Assembly: GCA_004322215.1 (NCBI GenBank)
Contig: SCSM01000007.1
Coordinates: 124,001-188,000 of the forward strand
Direction of reading: 5' to 3'
Length of the DNA: 64,000 nucleotides
Source: Bacteroidota bacterium
GTDB lineage: Bacteria > Bacteroidota > Ignavibacteria > Kapaibacteriales > UBA2268
The notes beneath the pieces are model-generated. The model was not told the origin of the DNA. It ran no database searches and saw nothing but the letters and a program-made list of their open reading frames with translations. Each line of letters starts with the position of its first letter. Position 1 is the stretch's first letter. Of this stretch, positions 1 to 33,784 are shown in pieces. A program made the translations under genes and the position numbers.

Positions 1-79
1 TAGATATTAAAACTACAATTAATGTGATAACTATCAATTTGCTTTTCATATATCCTCCGTTATAATATTATTCTTTTTA

Positions 80-4600: not shown

Positions 4601-5513
4601 TGTGAACAATTAAAGCAGAATCTGGTTTCCCAATGTCCTTAAGTGTATTTCCGATTCCATTTAGGATTCTGAATACTTCATTTTTTTTATTTATTCTTTC
4701 AGCTAATTTCAGAGATTTATCGTAATATTTTAAAGAACTATCAGGTTTACCGATATCCTTAAATGTGTTACCGACATTGCAGGTCATACCTATCTGGTTT
4801 TCTAAATCATTTAATTTTTCAGAAATGTCCTTCCCTATATCCCACACTTCTAATGCTTTTTCATATTCATGAAAGTTTTTATGATATAACACACCTATTA
4901 AATAATATGCATAAGGTATTTCCGGATTAATTTTCAGAGAGCGTTCAAACGATTTAATAGCTTTGTTAGTTTCCTTCATTTTTCTATATATGCAGCCTAA
5001 TCCATAAAATGCAGCTGAATTTGATGAATCGTCTTGAATCTCTTTATTTATTAAATTCAATATATTTTCTAAATCAACTTTTTTTTGAAAATCTTCAACA
5101 AGGTGAAAATAGGCAGTCTCGAAGCGAGGAATTAGTTCCAAGCATTTATTGTAATTGGTAATAGCAGAATCATATTTCTTTTGAAATTTGTATAGTAAAC
5201 CTTTTGTAAAGTATAAGTATCCATTTTTGGAATGAAAATTCAAAATCGAATCAATAATATTCATCCCCTTCTTAAATTGTTTTGAATCTCTGAAAGTTAG
5301 TGCAATAGATTCATATATATAAGGAAAATCAGGATATTTGTCTATTATATTCATACCTGATGAGATAGCTTCATCATATTTTTCTGAATAGGAGCTTCTT
5401 AGAAAATCAAGATATTCCTCTTTTAGCTGACATTTGCAAACTGTGTAATTTTGAATAAGGAAAAGAATTGTCAAAAATGTCCAAATGAGAATGTTTTTTC
5501 TTTTAACAAGCAT
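1650..5513 (-). CDS. Exported TPR-CHAT caspase-like protease
   Basis: 1287 residues. An N-terminal signal peptide (LIWTFLTILFLIQ) is followed by TPR repeats of about 40 residues from ~35 to ~780, a helical linker, and a C-terminal CHAT domain (~960-1287). The CHAT catalytic pair is intact: His in LSTHALAD (about residue 1148) and Cys in LSACETG (about 1195), with the typical RGEGLIGLTRAF and SLW-V motifs after it. CHAT domains are clan CD (caspase-like) cysteine peptidases, and TPRs usually bind the partner or trigger. There is no T9SS tail, so a periplasmic location is likely. ATG at 5513 follows a GGTGA ribosome site. It is the second CHAT protease of the cluster and diverges strongly from the one at 8939-12316. 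Substrate unknown. Confidence 0.9.
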   Translation of the reverse strand: MLVKRKNILIWTFLTILFLIQNYTVCKCQLKEEYLDFLRSSYSEKYDEAISSGMNIIDKYPDFPYIYESIALTFRDSKQFKKGMNIIDSILNFHSKNGYLYFTKGLLYKFQKKYDSAITNYNKCLELIPRFETAYFHLVEDFQKKVDLENILNLINKEIQDDSSNSAAFYGLGCIYRKMKETNKAIKSFERSLKINPEIPYAYYLIGVLYHKNFHEYEKALEVWDIGKDISEKLNDLENQIGMTCNVGNTFKDIGKPDSSLKYYDKSLKLAERINKKNEVFRILNGIGNTLKDIGKPDSALIVHNKAFDIAKEINDSNNIWMIIGNIGADYKDISSYEESIKYSKLALKMAIELGDSMKVFTSCLNLGATLSDIANYDEALIYNNRALKIIYTTNDKRSICDLLNNIAIVYRAKGEARIALDSLQKSLGIARSIPSLILESQILGKIGYAYTGLCDYATALNYLLRALYMSDSLNLKLSKGTLLGNIGLIYKIWGDIPKALSYINQAIIEDTKTSDLRGVIRHKINLANIFEEQGNYIEALKIQKKCLNISDSIDILDYSCIFRQNIGNVYCKLGKFKEANDYFFDAYKIAKSISNKDYILSILFNLGVNKERDGDDSTALIIYNEVLDSAESFGNKDEMVSALIAIANYYQNNDNYSKARALYNKAFLIAKEIGIKKWIGKIYMNLGDNYFSNKRLDPAQKYYYRANEIGKELNSFHLVSQSFDKLGNVYYEKREMDKALKFYQQSINEIESVRENLEIETYKTSFMEGKYSEYESIISLLIEMKRHEEAYSYLQRFKMRNFLDMMSPDRLTHNVGIPTQMHEKYKNSELKMRNYNLMLAYEKSKASEKQDLKIISEINDSLKTTKTVLENLIDEIRLNHPHWAELTGNAKTPELKDIQENAISEGDVIIEYYVSDATVAAWIIKKDTINFIKLPTNQNEIEKLVMAFRQPFIDAKEGKINNLADVNFDVEKSNKLYKKIFKPIEKFIPQNTELIIVPDGILHYLPFDALVTNKEEKTNDQNIIFSRYENLHYLIEKYSLSYVPSASILTLRKDSTIKLKEQNQDSLLAFGSPDFGPYLKKEKESEDKYNFLLKNSKSLAFKQLSDKDVIEVSNIVKPSAIFIGKKATEKKFKENAKYYPYIYLSTHALADEIQPMYSLIALAQDDSLQEDGLLHTYEVYNLQLNADLVTLSACETGLGKLSRGEGLIGLTRAFLYSGATSVLVSLWSVDETTSTIMKYFYQNIINGLSKSEALRQAKLMLIKTRENGISFSHPFLWAPFILVGQH

Positions 5514-5909
5514 ATTTTCACCATGTAAATTTTAAAAAAGTCTTTGAAAAATTCTATAATTATTTAAAAGACAATCCCGCAGCAGAAAACTTTATATATA
5601 TAAGATTGAAAGAGTTTAAATATACTCCGACAAAATCCGAATTATTGAAATTGTGAAAAATATTTCAAAGATAGAATATTTTTCTTCTATACTGCTTTTG
5701 CTGGATATTATACCAGCACTTATATTATAGAACTTTGTTTCAGGTGAAATTAAATAAGTAATTATATTTATTGAAATAATGTAAATATAATTTTAGACCC
5801 AACTGTAAACCAAAATATGAAATTTTATTATACTTTTCAAAATTCCATTTTCATTTGAAGCATCACAAGCTCAAAATACTTTGAAAAGATGTAGTGATAA
5901 TTGCTTATC
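5514..5909. other. Gene-free spacer of about 400 bases
   Basis: AT-rich DNA between the 116-residue gene and the second TPR-CHAT gene, both on the minus strand. I see no ORF with a ribosome site, no convincing terminator hairpin and no repeat. It is long enough to hold an independent promoter for the downstream protease gene, but I cannot point to one. Confidence 0.5.
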
Positions 5910-6260
5910 TTAGTTTTCGACTTTTTGCGGTAAATCAGAATTTTCATGCTCTTGCAACCACAAATTTATTGCCTCTCTTTCGTATGCTTCCCCATCCTCA
6001 GCGGGTTCAATTCTAATAAATTCGAATTTGTAATCAGAAAAGGGAGAAAAAATAATATTAAGAAAAGCTAATTGTATCTCTGTCCCACTTTTTTCAAAGT
6101 TGATTCGGTAAAATTCTTCCTCATATCCTTTTGAAAAAAGAGTGAAAGCAAAACGACAACCTGTTAAACCTTCACTTGCATAAGCTCCACTATAAAGTTC
6201 TTCACTTAAGTTTTTCAACTTACTTTCAGTTGATTCTGTTTTTTTTACATAAATATACAT
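5910..6260 (-). CDS. Small hypothetical protein (116 aa)
   Basis: A 116-residue soluble protein with no signal peptide or membrane segment. ATG at 6260 follows AAAGG at a normal distance. It contains a predicted alternation of beta-strands (CRFAFTLF, IQLAFLNIIF, YKFEFIRIEP) and an acidic C-terminus. I do not recognise a family. It lies 46 bases after the 227-residue gene and shares its direction, so it is probably co-transcribed with the other small cytoplasmic proteins between the two CHAT protease genes. Confidence 0.7.
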   Translation of the reverse strand: MYIYVKKTESTESKLKNLSEELYSGAYASEGLTGCRFAFTLFSKGYEEEFYRINFEKSGTEIQLAFLNIIFSPFSDYKFEFIRIEPAEDGEAYEREAINLWLQEHENSDLPQKVEN

Positions 6261-6306
6261 ATCAATACCTTTAAATTTTGAATAATTTATTATAATAAAA
6301 CATATT

Positions 6307-6990
6307 TCAAGTTTTTGAAGCTTTTAAATTGTTAACTTTTTCTAATGAACATTTTTTCAAATCATTCAAATTTTTTGCTTTTTTTACATCTATTTCTGTA
6401 CAAAAGAAATTAATTATGGAATTCATTAGTACTTCTTTTTCAACATCCTCAATAATTACAACTTTTTCATCAGCAGAATAAAGCTCAAAGAAAGGATAGA
6501 CAGTCTCTTCATAAATCAATTTTGCTATTGCACCTTCATTTGCTTTTCCAACTTCCGAAATATTAATAAGAAATTTTTGTAATTCTTGAGGGGTAGCTCC
6601 AAAACCGAATGCATTTCCAGTAATCCCTAAAGCTGTTTGAAGTAATCCGATTTTAAAGGCAAATTCCATTCCTTCTTCTCGATTTAAACCATCAGGTGGA
6701 AAGGTACACATCCAACCTTCTTTAACTCTTTTAAGAACAACTTTCCTAGGATCAAAGTAACCAATTCTTTCAGTTCCTACATTTGATTTATATAAGCCCT
6801 CCTTAACATAAGATTGACCTACAATATAATCAAGGTTGATAGTTCCAATAATCTTTTCTTCATCAACTGTTTTTTCAGTATCGTCCTTTTTTCCAATTTC
6901 AATTTTCTCATTAGCTTTGTTAAGATTCTCTTCTTTCCCTTGATAATTGCTTACCTTTTGCTTCTTCTTAAATAAATTTTTTAAAAACAT
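6307..6990 (-). CDS. Hypothetical cytoplasmic protein (227 aa)
   Basis: Family not recognised. I place the start at the ATG at 6990 (protein begins MFLKNLFKKKQK) because AAAGGTGA lies just before it. A longer frame to 7071 would overlap the upstream Zn-ribbon gene and lacks such a site. The N-terminus is basic, followed by a Lys/Glu-rich linker of about 45 residues and then a compact domain (~50-215) with motifs FPPDGLNREEG and GFGATPQELQKFL. No signal peptide. It is one of four co-directional cytoplasmic genes between the two exported CHAT proteases. Confidence 0.7.
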   Translation of the reverse strand: MFLKNLFKKKQKVSNYQGKEENLNKANEKIEIGKKDDTEKTVDEEKIIGTINLDYIVGQSYVKEGLYKSNVGTERIGYFDPRKVVLKRVKEGWMCTFPPDGLNREEGMEFAFKIGLLQTALGITGNAFGFGATPQELQKFLINISEVGKANEGAIAKLIYEETVYPFFELYSADEKVVIIEDVEKEVLMNSIINFFCTEIDVKKAKNLNDLKKCSLEKVNNLKASKT

Positions 6991-7024
6991 ATTTTCACCT
7001 TTGAATATTAATAAAATTATTCTA

Positions 7025-7237
7025 TTACTTATCTGCCGGCCCTTCAAAGAGCGTTTTAGCTGATTTTCCACATTTAGGACACGGAGTTTCTAATCTGAAA
7101 TCATTCCATGGATTATGCTCAATGCAAAAAACATGGCCACAGTTAAAACATTTAGCGCCGACCATTTTACTAAGTCGCATTGACTCATTATTAAAATGAG
7201 CTTCAAAATTCTTATTGCAAATATTACAAGTATACAT
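7025..7237 (-). CDS. Small zinc-finger protein (70 aa)
   Basis: A 70-residue protein rich in paired cysteines: C4/C7, C30/C33, C38/H41 and C53/C56. This fits two zinc sites, like a small RING or treble-clef double ribbon. A strong AGGAGG precedes the ATG at 7237. It ends 34 bases before the start of the next gene, so the two are probably translated together. Such small Zn proteins often bind nucleic acid or act as adaptor proteins; its role here is unknown. Confidence 0.75.
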   Translation of the reverse strand: MYTCNICNKNFEAHFNNESMRLSKMVGAKCFNCGHVFCIEHNPWNDFRLETPCPKCGKSAKTLFEGPADK

Positions 7238-7481
7238 GACTTTTTCCTCCTATAATATTAATGAAAATAATTAAATGTATAATTTTTTACATTACTATCA
7301 TATACCCTATATATCTAGTTACTTTAAAAATAGTTACCATTTTTCCTCTTTAAATTTAAATTAAATATTTCTTTTATTTGATTTTGAACCCATTCAATCC
7401 ACATTAATTTATTATAACCAAAATCCTAAATTTGACATAATTACAAACTTCCTTTTATTAATAATAATAACTTTATTTTAT

Positions 7482-8837
7482 TTAATCCTTGATACAGCGA
7501 ATAGACAATCCAGAAGCTTTATCAATCATGCTCATCCACAGGTTAGGGTTATTATAATTCAAAGACCAAATCCATGAATTTGTGCTATTAGGTTCAGGTG
7601 TGGTTGACCAAAACTCACAGTTTTCTCCTAAGGAATAAAATTCACCCCCAAAAAATACATACTTTGTATAATTTTCAATAAGAGCCTTGACACTACGGTA
7701 TCCGCCAGGTATTGCTGAGAATCCTGTTAAATTTGTTGCACCTTCATTTGGGAAAGACCAAATACCATCCCCCTTTTCTTTATTTCCAACACTTTTTAAA
7801 ATTCCTCCTACTTCTTTATTTGAAGAGGCTAAATAATTACATAACACTTTCCATTCTTCATGTGATGGAATATGCCAACCTATAGGTGCCAATCCTCTGG
7901 AGTCATTTACAGCATACCAGTTATATAACCTTCCATAAATTTCTCCGAAAGCAGGATCATTATTGTAATAACACCAAGCCCCAATTTTTAAGTTTGTCCA
8001 TTCTTCTGTATTTGAAACTTGTGGAATTCGTTCACCATTCCTATAATGGTCTATATTGAGGTTTTTCTTCATCCAGACTTGATTTCCGATAGTAATCAAT
8101 TCAAATTCCTTGTTGTTTTGTTGCACTTCTTCTTTAGGTACCTTTTTCCAAAATTGCCACCAAGCCTTTTTGGGAAAATTTCTCTTTTCTTCTATTAATG
8201 TTTGAATAGATTTAGTGTTAGTTTTCTGAAGTGTATTAATAGCATTTTCACATGCAATTTTCACTTCATCAACTTGTTCAACTCTGAGCTGTTTCTGGAG
8301 GGCTTCAACTGCTTGAACGTTATTAAATCCATACTTTCCTAAAATTTTAGCTGCTATCGCTCTTTTTTCAGGTGTTTCTCCTAAAGGAAGAAAAATATTT
8401 ATTACCTCATCAATTGTTTCTGGTGCATAAATCCATCCTGTTTCATTACAAAGATCCTCATCAACTCGTGACCATTTTTTAGTAACAAATCTACCTTGTT
8501 CATCCACTCCTCCAATTTGAACGAGTGGTTGATAACCTCCTGTCATATTTGTAACCTGACCCTCTATAAAACGGTTTTTAAGAGGTAAAAGCCCTTTATC
8601 TGTAGCTAAACTCATCACCTCCTTAATATACATAATGTTTGAATAAATTAGAGTATATGCAGAAATACAGAAATGATTTGCTTGACCCCTAATTGTTTCT
8701 GCTGTATCTCCATCAAAGATAGTAGTTGCTGGAATTTTTTCACCTCTACAATGACTCATAAATATCTTGTAAGCCTTGTATCCATAAAAACCTCCTTCAA
8801 GATCATCGATATCAAATAAAATTCCAATTTCAAACAA
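7482..8837 (-). CDS. Cytoplasmic fusion: unknown N-domain, HEAT-like helices, Fib_succ_major domain
   Basis: 451 residues. The start appears to be TTG at 8837, placed behind AAAAGGTGAAAC; no in-frame ATG lies close. There is no signal peptide. Residues ~1-150 are an unrecognised domain (GGFYGYKAYKIFM). Residues ~155-205 look like HEAT-type helices (AIAAKILGKYG, QAVEALQKQL). A basic Trp-rich linker (KKAWWQFWKK) follows, then from ~247 to the end a Fibrobacter succinogenes major paralogous domain (QVWMKKNLNID, YGRLYNWYAVND, FWSTTPE, SIRCIKD), a C-type-lectin/FGE-like fold. These domains are usually on exported proteins, so an apparently cytoplasmic copy is odd. The same domain occurs on the lipoprotein at 52678-53637. 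Confidence 0.8.
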   Translation of the reverse strand: MFEIGILFDIDDLEGGFYGYKAYKIFMSHCRGEKIPATTIFDGDTAETIRGQANHFCISAYTLIYSNIMYIKEVMSLATDKGLLPLKNRFIEGQVTNMTGGYQPLVQIGGVDEQGRFVTKKWSRVDEDLCNETGWIYAPETIDEVINIFLPLGETPEKRAIAAKILGKYGFNNVQAVEALQKQLRVEQVDEVKIACENAINTLQKTNTKSIQTLIEEKRNFPKKAWWQFWKKVPKEEVQQNNKEFELITIGNQVWMKKNLNIDHYRNGERIPQVSNTEEWTNLKIGAWCYYNNDPAFGEIYGRLYNWYAVNDSRGLAPIGWHIPSHEEWKVLCNYLASSNKEVGGILKSVGNKEKGDGIWSFPNEGATNLTGFSAIPGGYRSVKALIENYTKYVFFGGEFYSLGENCEFWSTTPEPNSTNSWIWSLNYNNPNLWMSMIDKASGLSIRCIKD

Positions 8838-8938
8838 TGTTTCACCTTTTAATATCTAAAAAATCATTATTTCACATACTTTATAACAGTTTCGTTATAA
8901 ACAATTCTCTTTGAATACATTTTTAAAATTTTTTAAAT

Positions 8939-11900
8939 TTACTCTCCTACCATCACAAACGCACCCCATACTATTAGTCTCTCATCTTTAGCAAGCATAT
9001 CTAACTGGGCTTTGCGAAAAGCTTCACGCTTGCTCATACCTTTTTCTATCCAGTTTTCATAAAACATACTCATAAATTCCTGAGTCTCACTATCGGGTAC
9101 TTTCCATAAACTCATTATCAGATTCTCTGCACCTGCAACGATGAATGCCCTCTGCAAGCCATAAACACCTTCCCCATTACGAACGTCACCAAGTCCTGTT
9201 TCACAAGCGGATAAAACAACAAGCCCGGTGTTATCCAAATTCAAATTCATTGCTTCCGAGGCAGTAAGAAAGCCATCTTCTGTCTTTCGTTCAGTTGCTT
9301 CCTGTTTAAAGGCTGCATCTGCACCAGCGAAGATTAATCCCGAACGCAAAAGAGGATTCTCATATACTTTACTGGTTTCCATACCAAACTTTTTTGAGCC
9401 AATTTTGCCGCTTCTGTACTGTTCATAAATATCTTTACTTGAATAAAAGAAACCATGCGTTGAAATATGCAGTATCGTCGGACTATTCAATATTTTGATT
9501 TCTTCTTCGAGTGCTTTCTCTCCTATGAAGAGTTCGGTTTTCCATTTATTCCTTCTTAATATTTTATCAATTTTTTCAACTTCTACTTTTGTTCCGGGCA
9601 ATTCAGGAATTCCTTTTCTTGCCAAACTATCCCTCAAACTGCCAAAGTAATCAAATTCTCTTTTCATATCGTATCTCATTGCATATTTTTCATATTCCTT
9701 CGAATCGAGATTATACTTCGGATATCCGAAAATGCTTGCGGTCGAGGGCTGTTCTGTTGACTTTTTCTGAACTTCGAGCAGGTCGCGGGTGCTTGTCAGA
9801 TAGCATATATCGAGGTCTTTTATTAAATAATTATTTGTTTCAGGATTAAGCAGCACATTCAGATTTATTTTATTATATATTCCATCCAGCGAAATATATA
9901 CCTTCTTAATTCCCTTCAGCTTTTCCTGAACCGGTTTCCAGTAAGCATCGAAATAGACAGGGCTCATAATAGATTCACCATTTTTAAATACTATTGAGTA
10001 CTTCCCAAATATATCATTTGGTTTACTGCCCTCGAGTTCGTTCCCATTTTCGAAAAGTACAAGCTCCGGCAATTTGCTGTCTTTCTTGATGATTAGGAAA
10101 GCGTAATAAACCGTATCAGTCCAGCGTTTGTCAAATAAATTGAATCTGACAATTTCGATTGCACATTCATCATCCTTCAGGATTGACTGAACATCCCGCC
10201 ATGTGTATTGTTTCTTTTCGTAAGCTTGCCTGAATTCTTCAGAAGCATTGGATAGATATTTCTCTAAGTTATTTGCGGAGTTTTCGATGGAATCTCGATT
10301 AATACCCCGTTTTATCAATTCCTGAGAGGTTGAACTATAAAGTTTATTTATATAGTTTTTCAAATCGAGCCATTCATCGAATTTTTTGTTCAATTCCTGG
10401 TTACCACTGTTTTTAATTCTTTCACGCACTTTTTTTGTGGAGTTGAGCAACATTCCTTTTGTTACGAGTTGGTTATTGTACATAGTCTCAACAATAGCAG
10501 GATTTTCTTTCATTCTTTTGATGGCAAATGAATTGAAAACCGTAAAGTTATTACTCATTGTACTCCAGAATTGCTGCTTTTCTTTTTCTGAGAGATAGGG
10601 AAAATTTTTATTTAATTGTTTTATATAAATTGCTAATTCCTCTATGAATAATTGCTCGGATGATTCGTTACGTCCCATTGCATAATAAAGCGTGGCAAGA
10701 TTATATAAACTTGTAGCAAAGTAGGGATGCTCTTCGCCAGATATTTTCCTATAGATTTCCACCGCCTTCTTATATAATGGTTCTGTTAATTCATAGCGTC
10801 CCATTGTATTATAAAGATTAGCAAGATTGTTTAAACTTGTCGCATAGTAAGGATGCTCTTCACCAAGTTTTTTTCTATAAATTTCCACTGCTTTCTTATA
10901 TAATGTTTCCGCTAGTTCATAGCGTTCCATCGCATTATAAAGATTAGCAAGATTGTATAAACTCATAGCATAGTCGGGATGCTCTTCGCCAAGTATTTTT
11001 CTTCTTATTTCCACAGCCTTCTTATATAATGGCTCTGTTAATTCATAGCGTCCCAATGCTTGATAAAGTTCCGCAAGATTGTTTAAACTCATAGCATAGT
11101 CTGGATGTTCTTCGCCAATTTTTTTTCTATAGATTACCACCGCCTTTTTATATAATGGTTCTGCTAATTCGTAGCGTCCCATTGTTCGATAAAGCGTCGC
11201 AAGATTGTTTAAACTCATAGCATAGTCTGGATGTTCTTCTCCAAGTATTTTTCTTCTCATTTCCATAGCCTTCTTATATAATGGCTCTGCTAATTCATAG
11301 CGTCCCATTGCTCGATAAAGCTCCGCAAGATTGTTTAAACTGCTCGCATAGTAGGGATGCTCTTCACTTAGCGTTTTTCTAATTATTTCCATCGCCTTCT
11401 TATATAATGGCTCTGCTGATTCGTAACGTCCCATTGCATAAGAAAGAAAGGCAAGATTGTTTAAACTCGCAGCATAGTCTGGATGTTCTTCGCCAAGTAT
11501 TTTTCTTCTTATTTCCATCGCCTTCTTATATAATGGTTCAGCTAATTCGTAGCTTCCTATTGCTTGATAAAGTGAAGCGAGATTGTTTAAACTCGTTGCA
11601 TATCCCGGATGTTCTTCGCCAAGTATTTTTCTTTTTATTTCCACTGCCTTCTTATATAATGGCTCTGCTAATTCGTAGCGTACCATTGCATAATAAAGCG
11701 CGGCAAGATTGTTTAAACTCGCCGCATAGTCTGGATGCTCTTCGCCAAGTACTTTTCTTCTTATTTCTATCGTTTTCTTATATAATGGCTCTGCTAATTC
11801 GTAGCGTACCATCACTCGATAAAGCTCCGCGAGATTGTCTAAACTGCTCGCATAGTCGGAATGTTCCTCGCCAAGTATTTTTCTATATATTTCCACCGCC

Positions 11901-12316
11901 TTCTTATATAATGGCTCTGCTAATTCATAGCGTCCCATTGCATAATAAAGCATTGCAAGAATATTTAAACTGCTAGCATAGTCAGGATGTTCTTCTCCAA
12001 GTATTTTCCTATCTATTTCAATACCCTTCTTCATTAATGGTTCTGCTTTAGCGTAATCATTTGCTTTATAGTATAAATATCCAAGATTATCTAATAGAAA
12101 TGCATAATCTTTTGAATCTCCTTTCCCGAATATTTTCTCATATTCAATTTTTGCTTTATTCAAATATTCGATTGCTTTTTCCATATCTCCATTATTATAA
12201 TATTCCCTTGACATGACAACTAAAGATTTCAAATCATTACTAATATTCTGAGCATTAATATTACATATTAAAGGGAACAAGAGGTAAAGTATTAGTGATA
12301 AATATTTTGTTTTCAT
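8939..12316 (-). CDS. Exported TPR-CHAT protease with tandem kinesin-light-chain-like TPRs
   Basis: 1125 residues. I choose the ATG at 12316, which has GGAG eight bases upstream and starts a signal peptide (MKTKYLSLILYLLFPL, cleavage near NINAQ); an upstream in-frame TTG at 12331 is less likely. Residues ~30-580 are TPRs, of which about eleven are nearly identical 42-residue units with core AEPLYKKA.EI.RKILGEEHP. A helical linker follows, then the CHAT domain with both catalytic residues: His in ISTHGFF (about residue 954) and Cys in LSACETG (about 1038). It is expected to be a caspase-like cysteine protease in the periplasm. It sits 30 bases downstream of a membrane Zn-ribbon gene, within the ECF sigma operon. 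Confidence 0.93.
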   Translation of the reverse strand: MKTKYLSLILYLLFPLICNINAQNISNDLKSLVVMSREYYNNGDMEKAIEYLNKAKIEYEKIFGKGDSKDYAFLLDNLGYLYYKANDYAKAEPLMKKGIEIDRKILGEEHPDYASSLNILAMLYYAMGRYELAEPLYKKAVEIYRKILGEEHSDYASSLDNLAELYRVMVRYELAEPLYKKTIEIRRKVLGEEHPDYAASLNNLAALYYAMVRYELAEPLYKKAVEIKRKILGEEHPGYATSLNNLASLYQAIGSYELAEPLYKKAMEIRRKILGEEHPDYAASLNNLAFLSYAMGRYESAEPLYKKAMEIIRKTLSEEHPYYASSLNNLAELYRAMGRYELAEPLYKKAMEMRRKILGEEHPDYAMSLNNLATLYRTMGRYELAEPLYKKAVVIYRKKIGEEHPDYAMSLNNLAELYQALGRYELTEPLYKKAVEIRRKILGEEHPDYAMSLYNLANLYNAMERYELAETLYKKAVEIYRKKLGEEHPYYATSLNNLANLYNTMGRYELTEPLYKKAVEIYRKISGEEHPYFATSLYNLATLYYAMGRNESSEQLFIEELAIYIKQLNKNFPYLSEKEKQQFWSTMSNNFTVFNSFAIKRMKENPAIVETMYNNQLVTKGMLLNSTKKVRERIKNSGNQELNKKFDEWLDLKNYINKLYSSTSQELIKRGINRDSIENSANNLEKYLSNASEEFRQAYEKKQYTWRDVQSILKDDECAIEIVRFNLFDKRWTDTVYYAFLIIKKDSKLPELVLFENGNELEGSKPNDIFGKYSIVFKNGESIMSPVYFDAYWKPVQEKLKGIKKVYISLDGIYNKINLNVLLNPETNNYLIKDLDICYLTSTRDLLEVQKKSTEQPSTASIFGYPKYNLDSKEYEKYAMRYDMKREFDYFGSLRDSLARKGIPELPGTKVEVEKIDKILRRNKWKTELFIGEKALEEEIKILNSPTILHISTHGFFYSSKDIYEQYRSGKIGSKKFGMETSKVYENPLLRSGLIFAGADAAFKQEATERKTEDGFLTASEAMNLNLDNTGLVVLSACETGLGDVRNGEGVYGLQRAFIVAGAENLIMSLWKVPDSETQEFMSMFYENWIEKGMSKREAFRKAQLDMLAKDERLIVWGAFVMVGE
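10730..12015 (-). repeat. 126-bp tandem repeat array inside the TPR-CHAT gene
   Basis: About ten to eleven direct copies of a 126-base unit, each encoding one 42-residue TPR. Copies are highly similar at the DNA level: the stretch coding for CGxSLNNLA and that for GEEHPDYA recur with only a few base changes. The period is constant, so copy number can change without shifting the frame. It is coding sequence, not a CRISPR: there are no spacers and the unit is too long. Confidence 0.9.
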
Positions 12317-12346
12317 TTCATCAATCTCCAAATAATTTCTATAACT

Positions 12347-12730
12347 TTATTCTCCTCTAACGCCAGAAATTCCAATTTCAGTTCCACATTTAACACATTT
12401 GTATTTTGTATCCCAAACTAAACGGTCTAAAATATGGGGCGATTGTTTCTTTATTTGTTTAATTACTTCAGTTCTCTTATGAACTGTACTACAATTGTGG
12501 CAAACAGGATCGATACCTTTAATGCTTTTCATTTCGTATTTTTTATTTAAATAATTCCCAATTACTACTAAAATTATTCCGATGATAAAAAAACCAGAAC
12601 AAATTAAAATTACTATTAAAGTAAAATCAAAAATTTGATCATGAAAGGCTATATAGGCAATCATACGAATTGTTGATATTAATATAGCCGAAGTACCCAA
12701 AGTAATTAATAATCTACTTAAAGCTTTCAT
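12347..12730 (-). CDS. Membrane protein with C-terminal zinc ribbon (127 aa)
   Basis: Two hydrophobic segments (about residues 5-30 and 36-62) are followed by a soluble tail with two CxxC pairs (CHNC near residue 79 and CVKC near 113), consistent with a zinc ribbon facing the cytoplasm. ATG at 12730 follows AAAAGGTGA. The gene lies between an exported hypothetical and the TPR-CHAT protease gene, with short gaps on both sides, so it is likely part of the sigma operon. No family recognised. Confidence 0.75.
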   Translation of the reverse strand: MKALSRLLITLGTSAILISTIRMIAYIAFHDQIFDFTLIVILICSGFFIIGIILVVIGNYLNKKYEMKSIKGIDPVCHNCSTVHKRTEVIKQIKKQSPHILDRLVWDTKYKCVKCGTEIGISGVRGE

Positions 12731-12758
12731 AATTTCACCTTTTTAATTTTAAAAATCA

Positions 12759-13505
12759 TTACTTCACATACTTTATTACAGGCTCGTTATAAACAATTTT
12801 CACAATGAATTCCCCTTGATACATTCCCGGTTTCTGTTTTGCATAAATAAAAAGAATGCCGCCTAAATTCAATTCCTGTTCGCCTGATGAATCTAATCTA
12901 TGGTTTCTTGTTGATGTAGTTAAATACCTAACAATCATCCAGGTATTTTTATCCGACACGTTTTTTATTATCACAGAGTCAGGTAGATAGATTTTATAGC
13001 TCATATCCATTTCTCCTTTTAAATTAATTTGAGCAGCACCTGTGGGTACTCTATACAAGCGGTCAAGAATTTTCTCTTTAATATCATTACCCCCATCAAA
13101 AATAACTCCACCCCAATTTTCGATACCATTTTGATTTATTGAAACACAGCCCGGTAAGTTACTTGCTTTTATAGAACCATAATTCAAATGTTTAAAAGTA
13201 GTATCATAATAACCACTACCTTGTAGAATAAGAGGAGCAACAATTTTTGGTTGAATAGTATGGAATACCTCCTTCTTTGCCTCAAGTACCTTACCTACAC
13301 CACCACCTTGGATATAATTTATATCAACATTATCGGCAGTTAAGCTTTTTCTGTAAATCACCGAATCTTTAACTTCTGTTATTAAAGTATCCTCTGAAAT
13401 AGTAGCAAAAATTTTAATTTTCAATTCAGCCTTATTTTGAGATAAAAGAAATTGAACTGAACATAATAAAAATAAATTCAAACAAAAAAAGAAATATAAT
13501 TTCAT
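12759..13505 (-). CDS. Exported hypothetical protein (248 aa)
   Basis: It starts with a signal peptide (LYFFFCLNLFLLCSVQFLLSQ) behind GGGAG. The rest is predicted beta-rich without cysteine pairs. The C-terminal half (PGMYQGEFIVKIVYNEPVIKYVK) resembles the beta-sandwich tail of proteins reporting small exported ligands, but I do not recognise a family. It is 28 bases upstream of the membrane Zn-ribbon gene and 31 bases after the preceding gene, so it belongs to the same transcript. It should be periplasmic or surface exposed. Confidence 0.75.
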   Translation of the reverse strand: MKLYFFFCLNLFLLCSVQFLLSQNKAELKIKIFATISEDTLITEVKDSVIYRKSLTADNVDINYIQGGGVGKVLEAKKEVFHTIQPKIVAPLILQGSGYYDTTFKHLNYGSIKASNLPGCVSINQNGIENWGGVIFDGGNDIKEKILDRLYRVPTGAAQINLKGEMDMSYKIYLPDSVIIKNVSDKNTWMIVRYLTTSTRNHRLDSSGEQELNLGGILFIYAKQKPGMYQGEFIVKIVYNEPVIKYVK

Positions 13506-13536
13506 GGTTTTCTCCCAAATAATAAATTATTTGATG

Positions 13537-14088
13537 TCATTTGATTATTATATAAAATTTTGAATCATACTCGCATCCTGTTAAATTATGCTTGCCATAA
13601 AAATCACGAACATAATACTCTGGTGGCACAGACGCAGATACGTCATAAGAACCATTTAAAAGTTTAATTCCTATTTTCCCTTGAGGAGGTATTAAATACC
13701 TTTGATTTTCAACACCAACATAACGTAGAGTAAGTATATATTTTGTATCGTTGAACGTTATTATTTTTGTGTATTTTTTGTTTGGATGTGAACAATCCCC
13801 TGAGTCTTGGGGGAAAGGATTATACTTACTTTCTTTGATTTCCTGCATTTTTTCAAGATTGATTACCTGTAAAAGACTATCTATTTGGCTTTCAAATTCA
13901 GTGTCCTTGTATTTTAATTTTATTGTATCTAAATACAGCTCTAATTCATCCAGATTCTCATCCAATCTAATTAATTGAACCTTGTTCCAGTCTTTTATAA
14001 AATCCTCTTTAATAGTTGAGCAGGAAATTAAAGAGATAAAAATTGTTAATAATAACAATTTCATGAATATTGTAAATGAAGCTTTCAT
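13537..14088 (-). CDS. Putative lipoprotein (183 aa)
   Basis: The N-terminus has a lipoprotein signal: hydrophobic LLLLTIFISLI followed by SCS, with the lipid-bearing Cys near residue 23. A helical segment of about 60 residues (LDENLDELELYLDTIKLKY) and a beta-rich C-terminus follow. Start ATG at 14088 has AAAAGGTGA; a second in-frame ATG at 14064 is possible. It lies only three bases after the anti-sigma gene, so the two are translationally linked. Function unknown; it may be an envelope sensor for the sigma system (inference from position). Confidence 0.75.
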   Translation of the reverse strand: MKASFTIFMKLLLLTIFISLISCSTIKEDFIKDWNKVQLIRLDENLDELELYLDTIKLKYKDTEFESQIDSLLQVINLEKMQEIKESKYNPFPQDSGDCSHPNKKYTKIITFNDTKYILTLRYVGVENQRYLIPPQGKIGIKLLNGSYDVSASVPPEYYVRDFYGKHNLTGCEYDSKFYIIIK

Positions 14089-14091
14089 AAA

Positions 14092-15045
14092 TCACCTTTT
14101 AATACCCTGATTTATTTCATTAATTTTTCTTATCATTTCTTTTGCTTTCAATTTGTATTCGCCTTTCATAGCCGCAGTTTTTTCAAATTCACTTATGGCT
14201 TTTGTTCCATCCCCTTTCAATAAATAAGTATTGCCGAGATACCAGAAAGCTTTCTCAGTGTATATTTTTGTGGTATCAATTTTAATTACAATCTGAAACT
14301 TTTTGATTGCTTTGTTTTTGTTGCTATCGAGCAGGTAACATAAGCCGAGATAAAAATGTATTTTTGATTGGTTTGTATCTTCAGATAACGCTGTTTCTAA
14401 CTTTTTAATTGCTTCAGGATAATTATTTGTGTTATACAACTTCATCCCATCTTCAAATGGGTTATCAACCTCATCAATATCTCTCGAGTTCATTAGTGAT
14501 ATAGGTTTATAAGGAATTTTTTGTATAACAGCTAAAGAGGAAATTTTCTTGCTTGTTTCTGCTAAATCTGTTTCTACTGTTTGTTCTTTTTTTGTTAAAG
14601 TTTGTTCTTTAACGATTTTCTCAATTTTATCTTTTTTTAAATGTGCAATTTCAATTTTCTTTTTGCTTCCAAAAAAATCATTCCATGTAATTAAAGTTGT
14701 AATCATTAAAATCAGAACTAATGATAAACTAATTGTCAATGTACGGTGTTTTATCCAGAGTAGAATTGCTAATGTAGATAGGAATTGAGAGATTTTATTA
14801 TCGGTTTTTTTTTGACGAGTTCCAACAAAACTCTTTTTCTCATTTATGCTTTTCTCTAATAATGATATTAACTCTTTGGAATTATCTTTCATGGTATCAA
14901 AAACGCCGGACATAGAATACAGGTCGCCGAAACATTTATCACATTCCAGAATATGTGCTTCAAAAGCTCTTCTTTCATCATCAGAAAGCAAGCCAAATTC
15001 ATAACGTGCAATTAATTTTTCCATGTCAGGGTTAGTACATTCCAT
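14092..15045 (-). CDS. Putative anti-sigma factor, zf-HC2-like with periplasmic TPRs
   Basis: 317 residues. The N-terminal ~60 residues match the zf-HC2 anti-sigma pattern (RYEFGLLSDDERRAFEAH, then LECDKCFGDL, giving H-x3-C-x2-C). A single membrane helix lies at about residues 98-118 (LTISLSLVLILMITTLI). The outer part has a Lys/Glu linker and then TPRs (~195-305: AIKKLETALSED, AISEFEKTA). It overlaps the ECF sigma gene by 14 bases, the usual sigma/anti-sigma arrangement. Known role of the family: hold the sigma factor at the membrane until a signal releases it. The external TPRs are an attractive contact for the TPR-CHAT proteases of the same operon (inference). Confidence 0.85.
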   Translation of the reverse strand: MECTNPDMEKLIARYEFGLLSDDERRAFEAHILECDKCFGDLYSMSGVFDTMKDNSKELISLLEKSINEKKSFVGTRQKKTDNKISQFLSTLAILLWIKHRTLTISLSLVLILMITTLITWNDFFGSKKKIEIAHLKKDKIEKIVKEQTLTKKEQTVETDLAETSKKISSLAVIQKIPYKPISLMNSRDIDEVDNPFEDGMKLYNTNNYPEAIKKLETALSEDTNQSKIHFYLGLCYLLDSNKNKAIKKFQIVIKIDTTKIYTEKAFWYLGNTYLLKGDGTKAISEFEKTAAMKGEYKLKAKEMIRKINEINQGIKR

Positions 15046-15643
15046 CTAAGCACCCTTCTTTTTTTAATTCGCTTTTCAAACTTTTCCTACATCTCCAAAC
15101 CATATTATCTATTGTAGCTCGGGGAGTCCCTGGGAAAAATTTCATATTGATTTCTTTTATTTTATATCCATTAAGAAAAGCAAGAAATATCTTTTGACAA
15201 TCATTACTTAACTTAGTGATGACCACTTTAATATATTGCAAAAGGTCATCAGTTTCTGGATTCTCACCCTTTGAATCAAAGTCAGGAATTTCAATATCGG
15301 ATTCACAATCATATTGAATTGTCTCTTTCAATTTATCCTTCTCTTTATTCTTAAAATAAATAAATACTTTATTCCTGAAAATAACGTTTGAATATTGCAA
15401 AAGACCTTTATCTAATATGAAATTACTGTCTCTAAGTTTATCTAACAGAGCAATTATTGTTTCAGAAACAATTTCTTCTCGATCCTTTTCAACTTCATCG
15501 TCAATTTTGTATTCGTTCCATATTATATGTTTCGCAATTTTCAAATATCTTGCATATAGGTTTGAAAAAAGTTGATTTTCGGAGTTTTTATCACCGTTAC
15601 GTGCTTCCTTCCATAATTCCATGATACCACTCTGATGACTCAT
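15032..15643 (-). CDS. ECF-type RNA polymerase sigma factor
   Basis: 203 residues with a sigma region 2 (~20-100, EIVSETIIALLDKLRDSN) and region 4 helix-turn-helix (~135-195, LSNDCQKIFLAFLNGYKIKEI and TIDNMVWRCRKSLKSEL). It directs RNA polymerase to a dedicated set of promoters. The start at 15643 is uncertain: AAAGGG lies somewhat far upstream, and an internal ATG at 15622 has no better site. It is the first gene of the minus-strand run, overlapping the anti-sigma gene, and about 1 kb of gene-free DNA lies upstream. The region 2 sequence diverges from the classic ECF pattern seen in the second sigma factor at 44088. Confidence 0.88.
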   Translation of the reverse strand: MSHQSGIMELWKEARNGDKNSENQLFSNLYARYLKIAKHIIWNEYKIDDEVEKDREEIVSETIIALLDKLRDSNFILDKGLLQYSNVIFRNKVFIYFKNKEKDKLKETIQYDCESDIEIPDFDSKGENPETDDLLQYIKVVITKLSNDCQKIFLAFLNGYKIKEINMKFFPGTPRATIDNMVWRCRKSLKSELKKEGCLDGMY

Positions 15644-16633
15644 CGATTGTATTCTTTCCCTTTAAAATTTATTAAAATCGATACAAATATTTCTGATAAG
15701 ATACACCTTGTTCAACATTTTGGAAATTTAACAAACTTAATAATAAAAAGAAAGAAAATATATAGCGATTATAAAATACTTATTAATATAAAATATATCA
15801 ACGATATTAGATTTTAACTTTGACTATTTAATATAATTTTGGTTCACATTTTTCTCATTGCATCTAATACTTCTGTATACACTATTTTAATATACTTTTT
15901 GAAAGCTGAACGGCTCTTGTGACAAGAGATTTGCATTACTATTTCATATGAGGAAATTTTCATCATTGTTCAGTTAATTATCTTAATAAAAACCTGAATA
16001 ATAGCATTCAAAGCAGAACCTATCTATATATGAGTTATTTTTATCTAATGTTGTTCGGCAACAATTCTATTGTTAAATTAAGCTATTCACGAATATAACT
16101 TAACAAATATAATGATGTTTTGCAAAGTTTTTTAACATAGATGAAACTATTTTTCTAACACCTGATTGATGCTGCTTAATCATTCATCTTTTTTTGAATG
16201 AAGTAAACTTAATCCACCAGATAAATTTCTTAGGAATTTAATGGAATGGCAGTGATAATGACCAATGATACTTAAAATACCACATCGTACCAATTTCATA
16301 TTCCCCACTGGAACCAATGACTTTTTAATAAGTTTCAGAAGTATTCTATTAGTGAAGTAAAGACCTCCTTAAAAGTAGTCAATAAGTACGCATAAAATTT
16401 CAATCATAATTAATGATTTTTATTGATGCTAAGTAAAAAATTTAATGTATCCTTTATACTTAAAATTAAGTTTTTGCTAAAATATTTTTAATTTATGCTG
16501 CTTTATTAATGAAAAGTGATGAAAATTGCTAATAACCACTGAAAACCATATATTAATTAGTAGAAATTATTGATTTTATATTAAATTATGTGTGAAAATT
16601 GTAACTCATTTTACCCATTTTTAAGGCATATTA
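15644..16633. other. Gene-free region of about 1 kb upstream of the sigma operon
   Basis: Strongly AT-rich with stops in all frames; short open stretches near 15635-15817 have no ribosome site or protein-like composition. It must hold the promoter of the minus-strand sigma operon. Visible structure is limited to a 15-base palindrome at 15914-15928 and a small GTTG/CAAC hairpin near 16050-16065. It could be a decayed gene region adjoining the pseudogene at 16634. Confidence 0.5.
15914..15928. promoter_or_regulatory. 15-base palindrome CTCTTGTGACAAGAG
   Basis: A perfect inverted repeat, CTCTTGT-G-ACAAGAG, about 270 bases upstream of the ECF sigma start. It could be a protein-binding site or a short hairpin (six-base stem, three-base loop). 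There is no T-tract on either side that would make it a typical terminator. Function not established. Confidence 0.3.
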
Positions 16634-16909
16634 TCAAATAAGTTTTCTTATTAGAAATTTCTTATTACCATTTTTCAATAAGTTAGCAGTGCGTAAATGA
16701 CTCTCCAATGTCTTGATTAACCAATCTTTCTCCTGAATTTCCTTGTAATATGCATCATTTTACTTCATTAACTTCATCAATCTTCATTTTTAATGGTTTT
16801 GAACATCTTTCAACCTATATTCCGGCAAATAGCTATTCTTGATTCTTTCCAATTCAATGAAATTTTCCAAATAATCATTTAATCTTGTTGCTTCACATCA
16901 TCTTTCATA
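16634..16909 (-). pseudogene. Decayed small coiled-coil gene
   Basis: An ATG at 16909 follows a good AAGGTGA site and reads MKDDV before a stop. After a one-base shift the frame continues with protein-like sequence (LNDYLENFIELERIKNSYL), meets several stops near the middle, and resumes in the same frame (AYYKEIQEKDWLIKTLESHL) to a stop at 16634. The charged, heptad-like composition resembles the coiled-coil tail of the gene at 17061. I read it as one gene broken by a frameshift and nonsense changes. Confidence 0.5.
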
Positions 16910-17060
16910 AAATCACCTTAATATTTATTAATAATCCAATTAAAACATTTCATTCTTGCATGTTCATAATGCTTTGGCAATTTGACGACTAACTTTGCTC
17001 ATTAAATTATTGCATAATTTCTGTAGTTATCATGAAAATTCTGACAATAATCAACTTTTA

Positions 17061-17702
17061 TCATGTGTTTTCCACAACCTTATAATTTTCAACTGTCAAA
17101 GGCGGTTCAGATTTCAATGAGATATTCTCAAATTTTTTATTCTCAAATCGCTGTTCCAATCTTCTAATAATCATTTTTAACTTGTCATTTTCTTCCGATA
17201 ATTTAGTGTTCTTATCCATCTCATCATTAAGAAAATCCATTATATCCTGATAACCAAGTTTTGTTTTTTCCTCAGGAAAGTTTTTCCAATTAAATTCTTC
17301 AATCCTTAATTCATTTTCAAGTTTTTCAATTTTCTCCTCCAATTCCCGAATTTTTTTATTATTAAAATTTTTTAAAATTCGTGAAACTTCTTCTTCGGTG
17401 AATACCTTCATTCCAATATTTTTAATCGCATTGATTTTTTCCGGAGTCAGGTTGAAATCTTTAAGCATTAATATTTTTGGACTTCTATACTGCAAATCCT
17501 CAATTGCAATAGAAGTCAAAATAAAATCCTTATTCTTATAAATAAGTGGTGCGTGCTTATAAAGTATATCAGTTATTTCTGATAAAGTATCTAAAGGTGT
17601 TTCATAACCGTAAAGTTTTTTAAATAATATGGCACACTCATTAATGAAGTCCATTAGCATCCTTTTATCAACTTCCTTTTTCGAGATATTTTCTGTTTTC
17701 AT
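17061..17702 (-). CDS. Hypothetical coiled-coil protein (213 aa)
   Basis: A soluble protein with a helical N-terminal domain (~10-100) and a long coiled coil (~110-195; RELEEKIEKLENELR and ENDKLKMIIRRLEQR). ATG at 17702 follows AAAGGAT. It overlaps the end of the phage-type replication gene by 35 bases, so the two are coupled. Family not recognised; the setting suggests a mobile-element accessory or replication partner. Confidence 0.7.
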   Translation of the reverse strand: MKTENISKKEVDKRMLMDFINECAILFKKLYGYETPLDTLSEITDILYKHAPLIYKNKDFILTSIAIEDLQYRSPKILMLKDFNLTPEKINAIKNIGMKVFTEEEVSRILKNFNNKKIRELEEKIEKLENELRIEEFNWKNFPEEKTKLGYQDIMDFLNDEMDKNTKLSEENDKLKMIIRRLEQRFENKKFENISLKSEPPLTVENYKVVENT

Positions 17703-18519
17703 CTGTAGTCATCCTTTCATTTTTATTATTAATAATATTTTTATCATATTCCTTTTTTTCGTTTGCTAACCAAACATTTAAATCTAGTTCCAATTCTTCA
17801 AGCGATTTTACTTCAATCCCATTTTTATTGCAGAAGTATTTTGACTTGAAGTGTAACTGGAATTTTTTTCGGACTGCAATATATTTTTCGGCTATTAAAG
17901 TTGCTTGGTCCCTTGATAATTCATGTTTATCGGAAAAATAATCTATAATTTCTTCCATTTGTGGAATAAATTTTATTTCCGGTGGTATAATTTCCTTCTT
18001 CCCTTCCTCTATAATACATTTACTTTCATTTCCTTTACAAACCAATACACTACTATATGTCGTAACTGGTTCTTGTAAAGGTAGTGGATTATTCGTCGAA
18101 GGCTCTTGGATGATTCCTTGATGATTCTCAGAATGGTTAAGTAATAATTTAAATTTATCTTCGTATTGCTTAATAACTTGATTTATGACATCTTGTGGTA
18201 TCTTGGAAACTTGTGGTTTATCAATTCTTTGATGTTCATTAAAAGTTCTGATTAATAAATAATCCGAATTTTTAAATTGGAAAGGTATAATAAAATTCTT
18301 TTCTTTTAATTCCTGAAGCCACGTTTGAACGTGATGTGACTTTACATCTTTTCTCCAAGCGAATATCTCTGATTTAAGATAATCGGAATCATCTCTTATA
18401 CAACCTGAATCATCAGCGAAATTCCATAAGGCTATATATAGTAAATTTGCTTGCATCGAGACTTTAGCAATATCCTCATCCTTCCAATGTTCAGGTTTTA
18501 TCGTTCTTATGCGAGCCAT
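17668..18519 (-). CDS. Phage-type replication protein (winged-helix N-domain)
   Basis: 283 residues. It opens with MARIRTIKPEHWKDEDIA, a signature common to phage and plasmid replication-organiser proteins. An N-terminal winged-helix-like domain (~1-115: LLYIALWNFADDSGCI, VQTWLQELKEKNFI, LLIRTFNEHQRIDKPQ) is followed by a variable linker and a helical C-terminal part with KKEYDKNI. In such elements the protein helps load the helicase at the origin. It lies three bases after the excisionase-like gene. No helicase or integrase gene is visible nearby, so the element is incomplete here. Confidence 0.7.
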   Translation of the reverse strand: MARIRTIKPEHWKDEDIAKVSMQANLLYIALWNFADDSGCIRDDSDYLKSEIFAWRKDVKSHHVQTWLQELKEKNFIIPFQFKNSDYLLIRTFNEHQRIDKPQVSKIPQDVINQVIKQYEDKFKLLLNHSENHQGIIQEPSTNNPLPLQEPVTTYSSVLVCKGNESKCIIEEGKKEIIPPEIKFIPQMEEIIDYFSDKHELSRDQATLIAEKYIAVRKKFQLHFKSKYFCNKNGIEVKSLEELELDLNVWLANEKKEYDKNIINNKNERMTTDENRKYLEKGS

Positions 18520-18522
18520 ACC

Positions 18523-18828
18523 TTACCTGTTTGAAAAATTTAATTTTTTCTGATTTTCTTCAAGAGTTTTAAAAACAATTTCCTCGTCAAAAATTATTTT
18601 TCGCCCTATTCTTACGTATGGTAAAATCCCCTGCTTCATGTGTTTCCAGAGTGTCGGTAAAGATATGTTGAGCTTTTCACACAATTGCTTACGAGTTAAA
18701 AAAATCTTTTGAGATTGTTCCGGCAATTGTTTACCAGTTAATTTTGTTAATTCGTGTTCATTTAGGGCCTCGCTTATAATTAGCTTCAGCTCTTCTATGT
18801 TTGGCATTGATGAATTTTGATTTTCCAT
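18523..18828 (-). CDS. HTH_17 / excisionase-family DNA-binding protein (101 aa)
   Basis: A MerR-like helix-turn-helix of the excisionase family occupies ~45-100 (LTRKQLCEKLNISLPTLWKHM, then PYVRIGRKIIFDEE). Such proteins act as Xis-type architectural factors or as regulators in integrative elements. ATG at 18828 has GAGGT upstream. The gene heads a three-gene overlapping run with the replication protein and the coiled-coil protein. Confidence 0.82.
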   Translation of the reverse strand: MENQNSSMPNIEELKLIISEALNEHELTKLTGKQLPEQSQKIFLTRKQLCEKLNISLPTLWKHMKQGILPYVRIGRKIIFDEEIVFKTLEENQKKLNFSNR

Positions 18829-18938
18829 AATTTTACCTCATTTTATATTAAATATTTTTGAGATAAAGACAAGAACAGTTTATAGATGTTTTAAGTCGAA
18901 ATGTGCATTTAAGTGTAGAAATGTGTATAAAATTGAAA

Positions 18939-19664
18939 TTAATTTATTAAACGAGATATAATATCAGTAATATCATCAATATAAGGATTAATAATATTGG
19001 CAATATTATAATTATTGAATTCATCAAAGTGTTTGTTTGCTCGGGTGAATTGGGTATTCAAATCGAATGATTTAATTGGCATACATTTAAATAAGAATTT
19101 ATCAGAAATAAGCCCCTTTAAAGCATTATCATTATATGGGCGAATTGATGTTTTATTTCTAAGATCCAAAATAATATTTACTAATTGTTGTAAATCTTCA
19201 TGCCAGCAGAATTTTTCTTCTTGCCAATGTCCGATTATAATATCAATCTTCCTTTTTTTCTCCGGTTCAGTATCAAACAATCCAATGGTTAATTTATTAA
19301 ATTCATCAACAATATTTTCATAACGCATAATCTCATCGGTTATTAAGACAATATAATTTTCACAATAACCGAGGGTTTCTTTAAAATAAATTGTCGTTTG
19401 TAACTTATCTTCAACCTTGTTGTTTTTATCAGAATAAAATTTTATCTTTTCAATATATTGATTTCTTAAATTTTGAGCAGTTTTATATTCTGTGATTAGA
19501 TAATTCAATTTGTCTTTAGGCTCATTGAATCCTCCAATTTCCTTTTTCAATTCTTGCCACATTGTTGAGAATGCCTGATTATGCTTCTCGTACTTGTTAG
19601 TGAAATGATTATATATTTCAAATGTTGGGCCACCAATCATATATCCTTCGTATTCAGTTAACAT
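18939..19664 (-). CDS. Hypothetical helical protein (241 aa)
   Basis: A soluble, mostly helical protein with charged helices (NLRNQYIEKIKFYSDKNNK) and a C-terminal part with short hydrophobic turns. The motif EEKFCWHEDLQQLVNIILDL is consistent with phage or conjugative-element proteins of unknown function seen in Bacteroidota, but I do not recognise a family. The ribosome site is weak (AAAGAAA). It lies 110 bases upstream of the excisionase-like gene. Confidence 0.65.
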   Translation of the reverse strand: MLTEYEGYMIGGPTFEIYNHFTNKYEKHNQAFSTMWQELKKEIGGFNEPKDKLNYLITEYKTAQNLRNQYIEKIKFYSDKNNKVEDKLQTTIYFKETLGYCENYIVLITDEIMRYENIVDEFNKLTIGLFDTEPEKKRKIDIIIGHWQEEKFCWHEDLQQLVNIILDLRNKTSIRPYNDNALKGLISDKFLFKCMPIKSFDLNTQFTRANKHFDEFNNYNIANIINPYIDDITDIISRLIN

Positions 19665-19863
19665 TTTCTTTTTATCAATCTAAGTATTTTAAGATAAAAT
19701 TAAAAAAATAATTTATCTCCACTTTAAAAATTATAACTTCAACTGTTTTGTCTTAATATTACTTGATTTTACAGTTTGGAAATATTATATTTGTTTTTGG
19801 GTTATAAATATTTATAGTTAATTAAATTTACATCCCTTTAATTTCATTCAGAGGATACGAGTA

Positions 19864-19980: not shown

Positions 19981-20006
19981 ATTATAATATTATAAATTGA
20001 ATTGTT

Positions 20007-33767: not shown

Positions 33768-33784
33768 AACTAATCCTTATTATT

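Follow-up and report, generated by a model that had tools for sequence, protein, structure and literature searches.

Two sigma/anti-sigma/CHAT loci in one window

The stretch analyzed here, hereafter the window, comprises 64,000 nucleotides of a Bacteroidota genome of the order Kapaibacteriales (contig SCSM01000007.1, positions 124,001 to 188,000; source genome of 4.2 Mb in 47 contigs). It carries two minus-strand loci, A (8939-15643) and B (40263-44663), in each of which a gene for an extracytoplasmic function (ECF) sigma factor is followed by a gene for a single-pass anti-sigma-type protein and, directly or after three further genes, by a gene for an exported protein that joins tetratricopeptide repeats (TPR) to a CHAT protease domain. 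An earlier note, made from the sequence alone, had described both loci in these terms, with the catalytic His and Cys intact, and domain profiles and motifs confirmed that description. We lean slightly toward reading the loci as envelope-signaling switches in which the exported CHAT protein would cut the anti-sigma protein, as a protease of the site-1 type.

At locus B the three genes are directly consecutive:

44088-44663, minus strand: ECF sigma factor, 191 amino acids, with Sigma70_r2, r4 and r4_2 above cut-off
43265-44077, minus strand: anti-sigma-type protein, 270 amino acids, with about 80 cytoplasmic amino acids, one transmembrane segment (residues ~81-100), a disordered linker and a folded periplasmic domain
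40263-43232, minus strand: exported TPR-CHAT protein, 989 amino acids (PF12770, E = 2e-56), with H824, C900 and D937

By its domain matches the first of these is clearly an ECF sigma factor. The anti-sigma-type protein belongs to a family with homologs in six other genomes; its AlphaFold2 model has a mean predicted local distance difference test (pLDDT) score of only 68.8, with a more confident alpha/beta domain, and the periplasmic domain bears a modest resemblance to the N-terminal domain of BamC (Foldseek E = 4e-4, TMt 0.40).

Locus A has the same order of sigma, anti-sigma-type and CHAT genes, with three extra genes before the last:

15032-15643, minus strand: ECF-type sigma factor, 203 amino acids, overlapping the start of the anti-sigma gene
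14092-15045, minus strand: anti-sigma-type protein with a cytoplasmic zf-HC2-like domain, one transmembrane segment, a linker and periplasmic TPR
13537-14088, minus strand: lipoprotein-like protein, 183 amino acids, without a family
12759-13505, minus strand: exported DUF4402 protein (Pfam)
12347-12730, minus strand: 127-amino-acid protein with two hydrophobic (transmembrane) segments and a CxxC...CxxC C terminus
8939-12331, minus strand: exported TPR-CHAT protein (PF12770, E = 5e-61; TPR_12, E = 2e-182); an ATG at 12316, as the alternative start, would give 1,125 amino acids

The locus A sigma factor is diverged, matching PF07638 just under the cut-off (E = 6e-4) and TIGR02985 of NCBIfam also below its own cut-off (E = 3e-10). 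In the adjoining anti-sigma protein zf-HC2 scores above the Pfam cut-off, and the transmembrane segment (about residues 102-120) precedes the TPR. This protein matched a profile of Bacteroidota TPR-bearing anti-sigma proteins that had been built without it (E = 1e-29), and its TPR-free first 200 residues still matched at E = 1e-5.

Both CHAT proteins retain intact THG and SACETG catalytic motifs and have predicted signal peptides, called with a simple hydrophobicity test; H824 and C900 of the locus B protein lie in invariant alignment columns. With PF12770 scores of 207 and 192 bits (loci A and B) against a curated cut-off of 24, and with His and Cys in place, they are CHAT-family proteins for which proteolysis is predicted. 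The compartments match as well, which bears on a way in which the earlier note might have failed: the CHAT proteins are predicted to be exported, and the C-terminal halves of the anti-sigma proteins are predicted to be periplasmic. The same note had treated locus B as a second copy, which does not hold. The sigma, anti-sigma and inserted genes gave no cross-match by phmmer, and the sigma factors and CHAT proteins of the two loci fall at separate places in their trees. Of the eight CHAT proteins encoded in the source genome, the window accounts for three; the third window TPR-CHAT gene (1650-5513) has no sigma gene adjoining.

Pairing in relatives and across the phylum

Direct triplets of the locus B type, their genes no more than about 40 nucleotides apart, were found in four other genomes, all of the same order (G015, G003, G020 and G012, the last a "Candidatus Kapaibacterium" metagenome-assembled genome), and G003 carries an additional, diverged triplet. 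Counterparts of the locus B sigma factor are 70% identical in G015 and G003 and 53% identical in a further genome, G009, where three large exported proteins (including WD40 and OmpA-type proteins) sit between anti-sigma and CHAT on one strand throughout, an insertion that mirrors the arrangement of locus A. For locus A, genome G001, from a sister species, contains orthologs of the sigma factor (65% identity) and anti-sigma protein (73%). Immediately behind them comes an exported TPR protein that reaches the contig end, so that only its TPR part is observed and any CHAT half lies beyond. The lipoprotein-like gene and the other two inserted genes are missing from this sister locus (G001:C48), and the three therefore do not belong to the core of locus A. 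Conservation of the triplet in relatives had been named in the earlier note as the point on which its idea would stand or fall; the triplet is conserved, and the association extends through the phylum in other gene orientations.

A sigma gene, each time followed directly by a single-transmembrane protein gene, lies in the same-strand upstream run of 11 of the 54 CHAT genes examined in the order (own genome included) and of none of 113 CHAT genes (71 + 42) sampled outside it; two entries of this comparison, L058 and L187, are one locus, and the comparison looked upstream only, so that tail-to-tail pairs were invisible to it. We rejected the possibility that the same-strand triplet is the sole arrangement and confined to the order, since a search with the anti-sigma profile revealed, across the phylum, pairs that are arranged tail-to-tail or divergently.

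CHAT proteins are common in the phylum, at least one being encoded in 181 of 396 sampled Bacteroidota genomes, and TPR-bearing anti-sigma proteins like that of locus A were found by profile search in 39 of the 396. In 38 genomes, chosen for containing a TPR anti-sigma protein so that the counts describe linkage and not prevalence, 66 of 84 TPR anti-sigma genes have a CHAT domain no more than 10 kb away, against 1.27 expected under random placement, and 22 of the 84 have one within 500 bp; conversely, 70 of the 89 CHAT genes have a TPR anti-sigma gene near. The excess over chance is about 50-fold, and the paired search covers 24 genera. CHAT is the direct neighbor in 13 of 20 regions centered on TPR anti-sigma matches (L272 included), with tail-to-tail pairs frequent and divergent pairs also present. 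The association of sigma/anti-sigma pairs with CHAT is firm.

The phylogenies indicate that the pairing arose more than once. In the CHAT tree the locus B proteins form one clade, whereas those of locus A and of the second G003 triplet lie elsewhere; four changes are needed, at least two of them forced by well-supported branches. The triplet sigma factors likewise need four changes, and a single clade was rejected by the approximately unbiased test (P = 0.023) in a tree that has long branches. That unrelated parts have come together more than once speaks for a functional link. It could still be supposed that the neighbors are simply coinherited or travel on mobile islands: the signal within the order partly reflects shared descent, the locus B loci being one clade, and a block of genes divergent from locus B is common to G015. 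Given the unrelated sigma and CHAT clades, the several orientations, the 24 genera and the roughly 50-fold excess, we regard linkage without function as very improbable.

Some neighboring arrangements differ in their architecture. The CHAT proteins beside TPR anti-sigma proteins in the wider Bacteroidota (L267-L283, L272) have a C-terminal transmembrane anchor that is absent at loci A and B. At several loci (L056, L057, L080 and L189 in G038; L265 in G229) CHAT is divided between two genes: there are exported TPR proteins of about 790 to 860 amino acids, of which the two checked, both from G038, end with the first 70 to 77 positions of the CHAT profile; near such proteins, behind a sigma factor and a TPR anti-sigma protein, lie catalytic CHAT proteins of 250 to 276 amino acids with a C-terminal transmembrane segment. 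This break fits the boundary between pseudo-caspase and active caspase described for Csx29. A further locus (L054, G003:C92) has a sigma/anti-sigma pair flanked by two divergent, related CHAT genes, of which the second is apparently split into two frames.

Candidate cut site and proposed switch

If the CHAT proteins cut their anti-sigma neighbors, the linker between membrane and periplasmic domain is where a target might be sought. Among 35 aligned TPR anti-sigma proteins, one column just before the TPR holds Arg in 29, Met in 4, His in 1 and Tyr in 1, and the residue after it is Gly or Ser in 27 of the 35; no other linker column within ten positions exceeds an identity of about 0.43. The site lies 19 to 29 residues beyond the transmembrane segment in 32 of 34 proteins and 66 to 68 residues beyond it in the locus A pair. 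In the family of the locus B anti-sigma protein (n = 7), only M1, I38 and R162 are invariant, and R162 is followed by Ser or Gly in all seven. The candidate P1 residues of the window (with a slash for the putative cut) are as follows:

43592-43594, minus strand: codon of Arg162 (IYSDR/SN) in the locus B anti-sigma protein, in a loop (residues 160-167) with pLDDT below 50
14482-14484, minus strand: codon of Arg188 (SLMNSR/DID) in the linker before the TPR of the locus A anti-sigma protein

The locus B and TPR anti-sigma proteins are unrelated families, and both have Arg-[Gly/Ser]. This suggests that Arg-[Gly/Ser] in the juxtamembrane linker is a candidate protease site; the substrates of separase are similarly unstructured around their P1 Arg (PMC10317155).

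The switch that we propose would work as follows. The sigma factor would be held at the inner membrane by the single-pass protein, acting as its anti-sigma factor with the outer part in the periplasm, in the same compartment as the TPR-CHAT protein, a predicted clan CD cysteine protease. The TPR part of the latter may serve in sensing or docking; at locus A and in its relatives its docking partner might be the TPR of the anti-sigma protein. Upon a presumed activating signal, the CHAT domain would cut the linker after the conserved Arg, some 20 to 30 residues past the membrane in most members, and further proteolysis would then free the sigma factor to transcribe its own operon (sigma, anti-sigma and CHAT) and, at locus B, probably also a divergent operon of envelope proteins.

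It is also conceivable, though rather unlikely in our judgment, that CHAT controls the anti-sigma protein without cutting it, with TPR-TPR contacts shielding it from, or exposing it to, another site-1 protease. TPRs are present in both partners at locus A and in its relatives, and Arg-[Gly/Ser] could serve another periplasmic protease; however, the CHAT proteins beside anti-sigma proteins retain their catalytic His and Cys, and the locus B anti-sigma protein, which has no TPR, still keeps Arg-[Gly/Ser].

A change that goes with the anti-sigma partner is seen at one position of the CHAT proteins, 37 residues after the catalytic Cys. Among 189 distinct CHAT sequences it holds Asp in 184 and Glu in 5, and four of the five Glu-type proteins adjoin anti-sigma proteins of the Met type; three of these pairs were seen first, and the fourth (G399) was found after the pattern had been noted. 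The fifth Glu-type protein is the window protein encoded at 1650-5513, which is without an anti-sigma protein. Six further CHAT columns also separate the first three Glu-type proteins. In human separase the residue that binds P1 Arg is Asp2070, with the catalytic residue at Cys2029, hence at Cys+41 (PMC10317155). We dropped the equation of D937, at Cys+37, with this residue, which lies 4 positions further on, and we rejected independent covariation of the Met/Glu switch, the pairs falling in a single clade.

Promoter-like sites at locus B bear on what the sigma factor may control. They lie in the region between the sigma gene and the divergent operon:

44664-44691, minus strand: promoter-like TGAAACC-N15-GTATAT directly before the sigma gene
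44780-44807, plus strand: matching promoter-like site facing the divergent operon
44837-45919, plus strand: exported protein with N-terminal TPR-like repeats, conserved in position in G015 (56% identity)
45932-47851, plus strand: lipoprotein-like protein, 639 amino acids, with no family match above cut-off; another lipoprotein takes its place in G015

The pattern TGAAACC-N15-GNATAT occurs twice in the window against 0.05 expected, and such sites recur at the same places in the related loci of G015 and G009. This pairing suggests autoregulation of locus B. The first site ends at the annotated sigma start, such that the transcript would be very short leadered or leaderless. Across the 4.2-Mb genome the strict pattern has five matches and a backward control one; a regulon beyond the locus was rejected, as the other three matches have no obvious target gene behind them and the control also yields one. 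G015 has parts of the divergent block in common with the window, namely a TPR-containing exported protein, a TRL-like protein and a DUF7948/SBBP protein bearing a type IX sorting tail. By eye, the 639-amino-acid protein contains ITHGG and VACQS motifs (HGG...VAC) that resemble a caspase-fold dyad. On the other side of the locus, 110 nucleotides downstream of the CHAT gene and on the same strand, lies a gene for a 2,122-amino-acid RHS-repeat protein (33785-40153; RHS_repeat, DUF6531, CW_binding_2); the related loci that were mapped showed no such gene.

The chief rival to CHAT as site-1 protease is a model in which CHAT is an output, switched on by the sigma factor. The sigma/anti-sigma pair would then sense the envelope in some other way, and the induced CHAT protein would act on other proteins, for example in death, defense or remodeling; we consider this possible and the less likely of the two. 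ECF operons are usually self-regulated, the promoter-like sites imply coregulation, and in G009 anti-sigma and CHAT are separated by envelope proteins of the WD40 and OmpA types. Several observations weigh on the same side or otherwise against CHAT as the protease of the anti-sigma protein. Most ECF genes of the source genome (L234-L253) are followed by a single-transmembrane protein and then by an exported protein or lipoprotein other than CHAT, so that output is a possible role for the third gene, and 43 of the 54 CHAT genes of the order have no same-strand run with a sigma gene. The locus B anti-sigma-type protein has no Pfam match and no recognized anti-sigma domain. The four Met/Glu pairs, being one clade with six other distinguishing columns, count as one event, and the role of D937 in a substrate pocket is putative, given that the separase Asp is at Cys+41 and not at Cys+37. 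In addition, no Csx30 residue that was mutated proved essential for cleavage by Csx29 (PMC10028731), and the CHAT proteins thus need not require a P1 Arg. However, an output role leaves unexplained the near-invariant Arg in otherwise variable linkers, the paired change of CHAT and anti-sigma proteins, and the tail-to-tail pairs, in which CHAT lies outside the sigma operon; moreover, Myxococcus DdvA has a CHAT domain in the anti-sigma chain itself.

The interpretation offered in the earlier note, that the protease cuts the anti-sigma protein and so frees the sigma factor, is thus partly supported: conservation, compartments and a plausible cut site speak for it, and the cutting and release themselves are predicted steps. 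Bacteria of the phylum Bacteroidota may turn on stress genes via a caspase relative outside the cytoplasm. We hold in even balance a broader proposal, in which exported TPR-CHAT proteins, as caspase relatives, would gate sigma switches throughout the phylum as dedicated site-1 proteases of single-pass anti-sigma proteins, cutting after Arg (after Met in one clade, with a matching change in CHAT), recruited several times to unrelated sigma/anti-sigma pairs and divided in some lineages into a TPR and pseudo-caspase chain and a membrane-anchored catalytic chain. Should the CHAT proteins cleave the anti-sigma proteins, proteases of the caspase type outside the cytoplasm would become transcriptional switches.

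Comparison with known systems

The model built for the catalytic half of the locus B CHAT protein (pLDDT 81.5, predicted template modeling score [pTM] 0.85) matched structures of Csx29/TPR-CHAT first and then those of DdvA, separase and gingipain R. Whereas phmmer found nothing significant for the locus B CHAT protein among PDB chains, the CHAT sequence profile reached DdvA (8rot, E = 6e-8). In the open-access literature the ECF/CHAT link appeared only in CRISPR-related papers, with subscription literature mostly outside the search and an earlier mention possible; no description of a function for exported CHAT proteins was found in the literature searched.

Separase and gingipain R are both Arg specific at P1 (PMC4626109, PMC10317155). 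They resemble the CHAT half in fold; their biology is unrelated, and the acidic residues of their S1 pockets do not correspond one to one.

In the manner of release, the proposed switch is like DegS-RseA and PrsW-RsiW, in which a single-pass anti-sigma factor is cut outside the membrane and an ECF sigma factor is released. In those pathways the site-1 cut is made by a PDZ serine protease or by a membrane protease, not by an enzyme of the caspase fold. RseA and RsiW are also cited in the work on Craspase (PMC10028731). CalpL-CalpT-CalpS, of type III CRISPR systems, is similar in that a protease cuts an anti-sigma factor and frees a sigma factor (PMC11229360), but CalpL is a cytoplasmic, Lon-family protease activated by cyclic oligoadenylate, unlike the exported CHAT proteins here.

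Type III-E Craspase (Cas7-11, Csx29, Csx30 and CASP-sigma) likewise combines a TPR-CHAT protease, an inhibitor and an ECF-like sigma factor: Csx30 binds CASP-sigma, and Csx29 cuts Csx30 between residues 427 and 429, relieving the inhibition (PMC10028731). The earlier note drew this comparison, which is apt as an analogy, the analogous parts being present, but does not extend to membership. Csx29 is cytoplasmic and activated by RNA bound to Cas7-11, whereas here the protease is exported and the anti-sigma protein spans the membrane; the anti-sigma-type proteins of the window have no family match to Csx30, and the position aligned with D937 is Ser in the TPR-CHAT chain of Craspase structure 7x8a. 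As that note had stated, there are no cas genes: defense-system models matched against ten window proteins returned no cas or other specific defense family and only generic TPR models. Neither a Cas7-11 effector among these proteins nor a CRISPR repeat array in the stretches searched (1-8900, 12335-20000 and 33000-53000 of the window) was found, and a CRISPR or other defense setting was rejected on these grounds.

DdvS/DdvA of Myxococcus xanthus offers another likeness, with an ECF sigma factor and a transmembrane anti-sigma factor that holds a CHAT-like domain (PDB 8rot/8rw5). Matched by both fold and profile, DdvA is a natural example of a CHAT-like domain and an anti-sigma factor in one chain, whereas these are encoded by separate genes at loci A and B and in the relatives mapped. 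One paper calls the signal that inactivates DdvA unknown (PMC4374960); according to another, an antiphage island is under the control of DdvS (PMC12288465). If the exported CHAT proteins do cleave anti-sigma factors, Craspase and DdvA would be linked to an ordinary envelope pathway that may have been a source of such systems.

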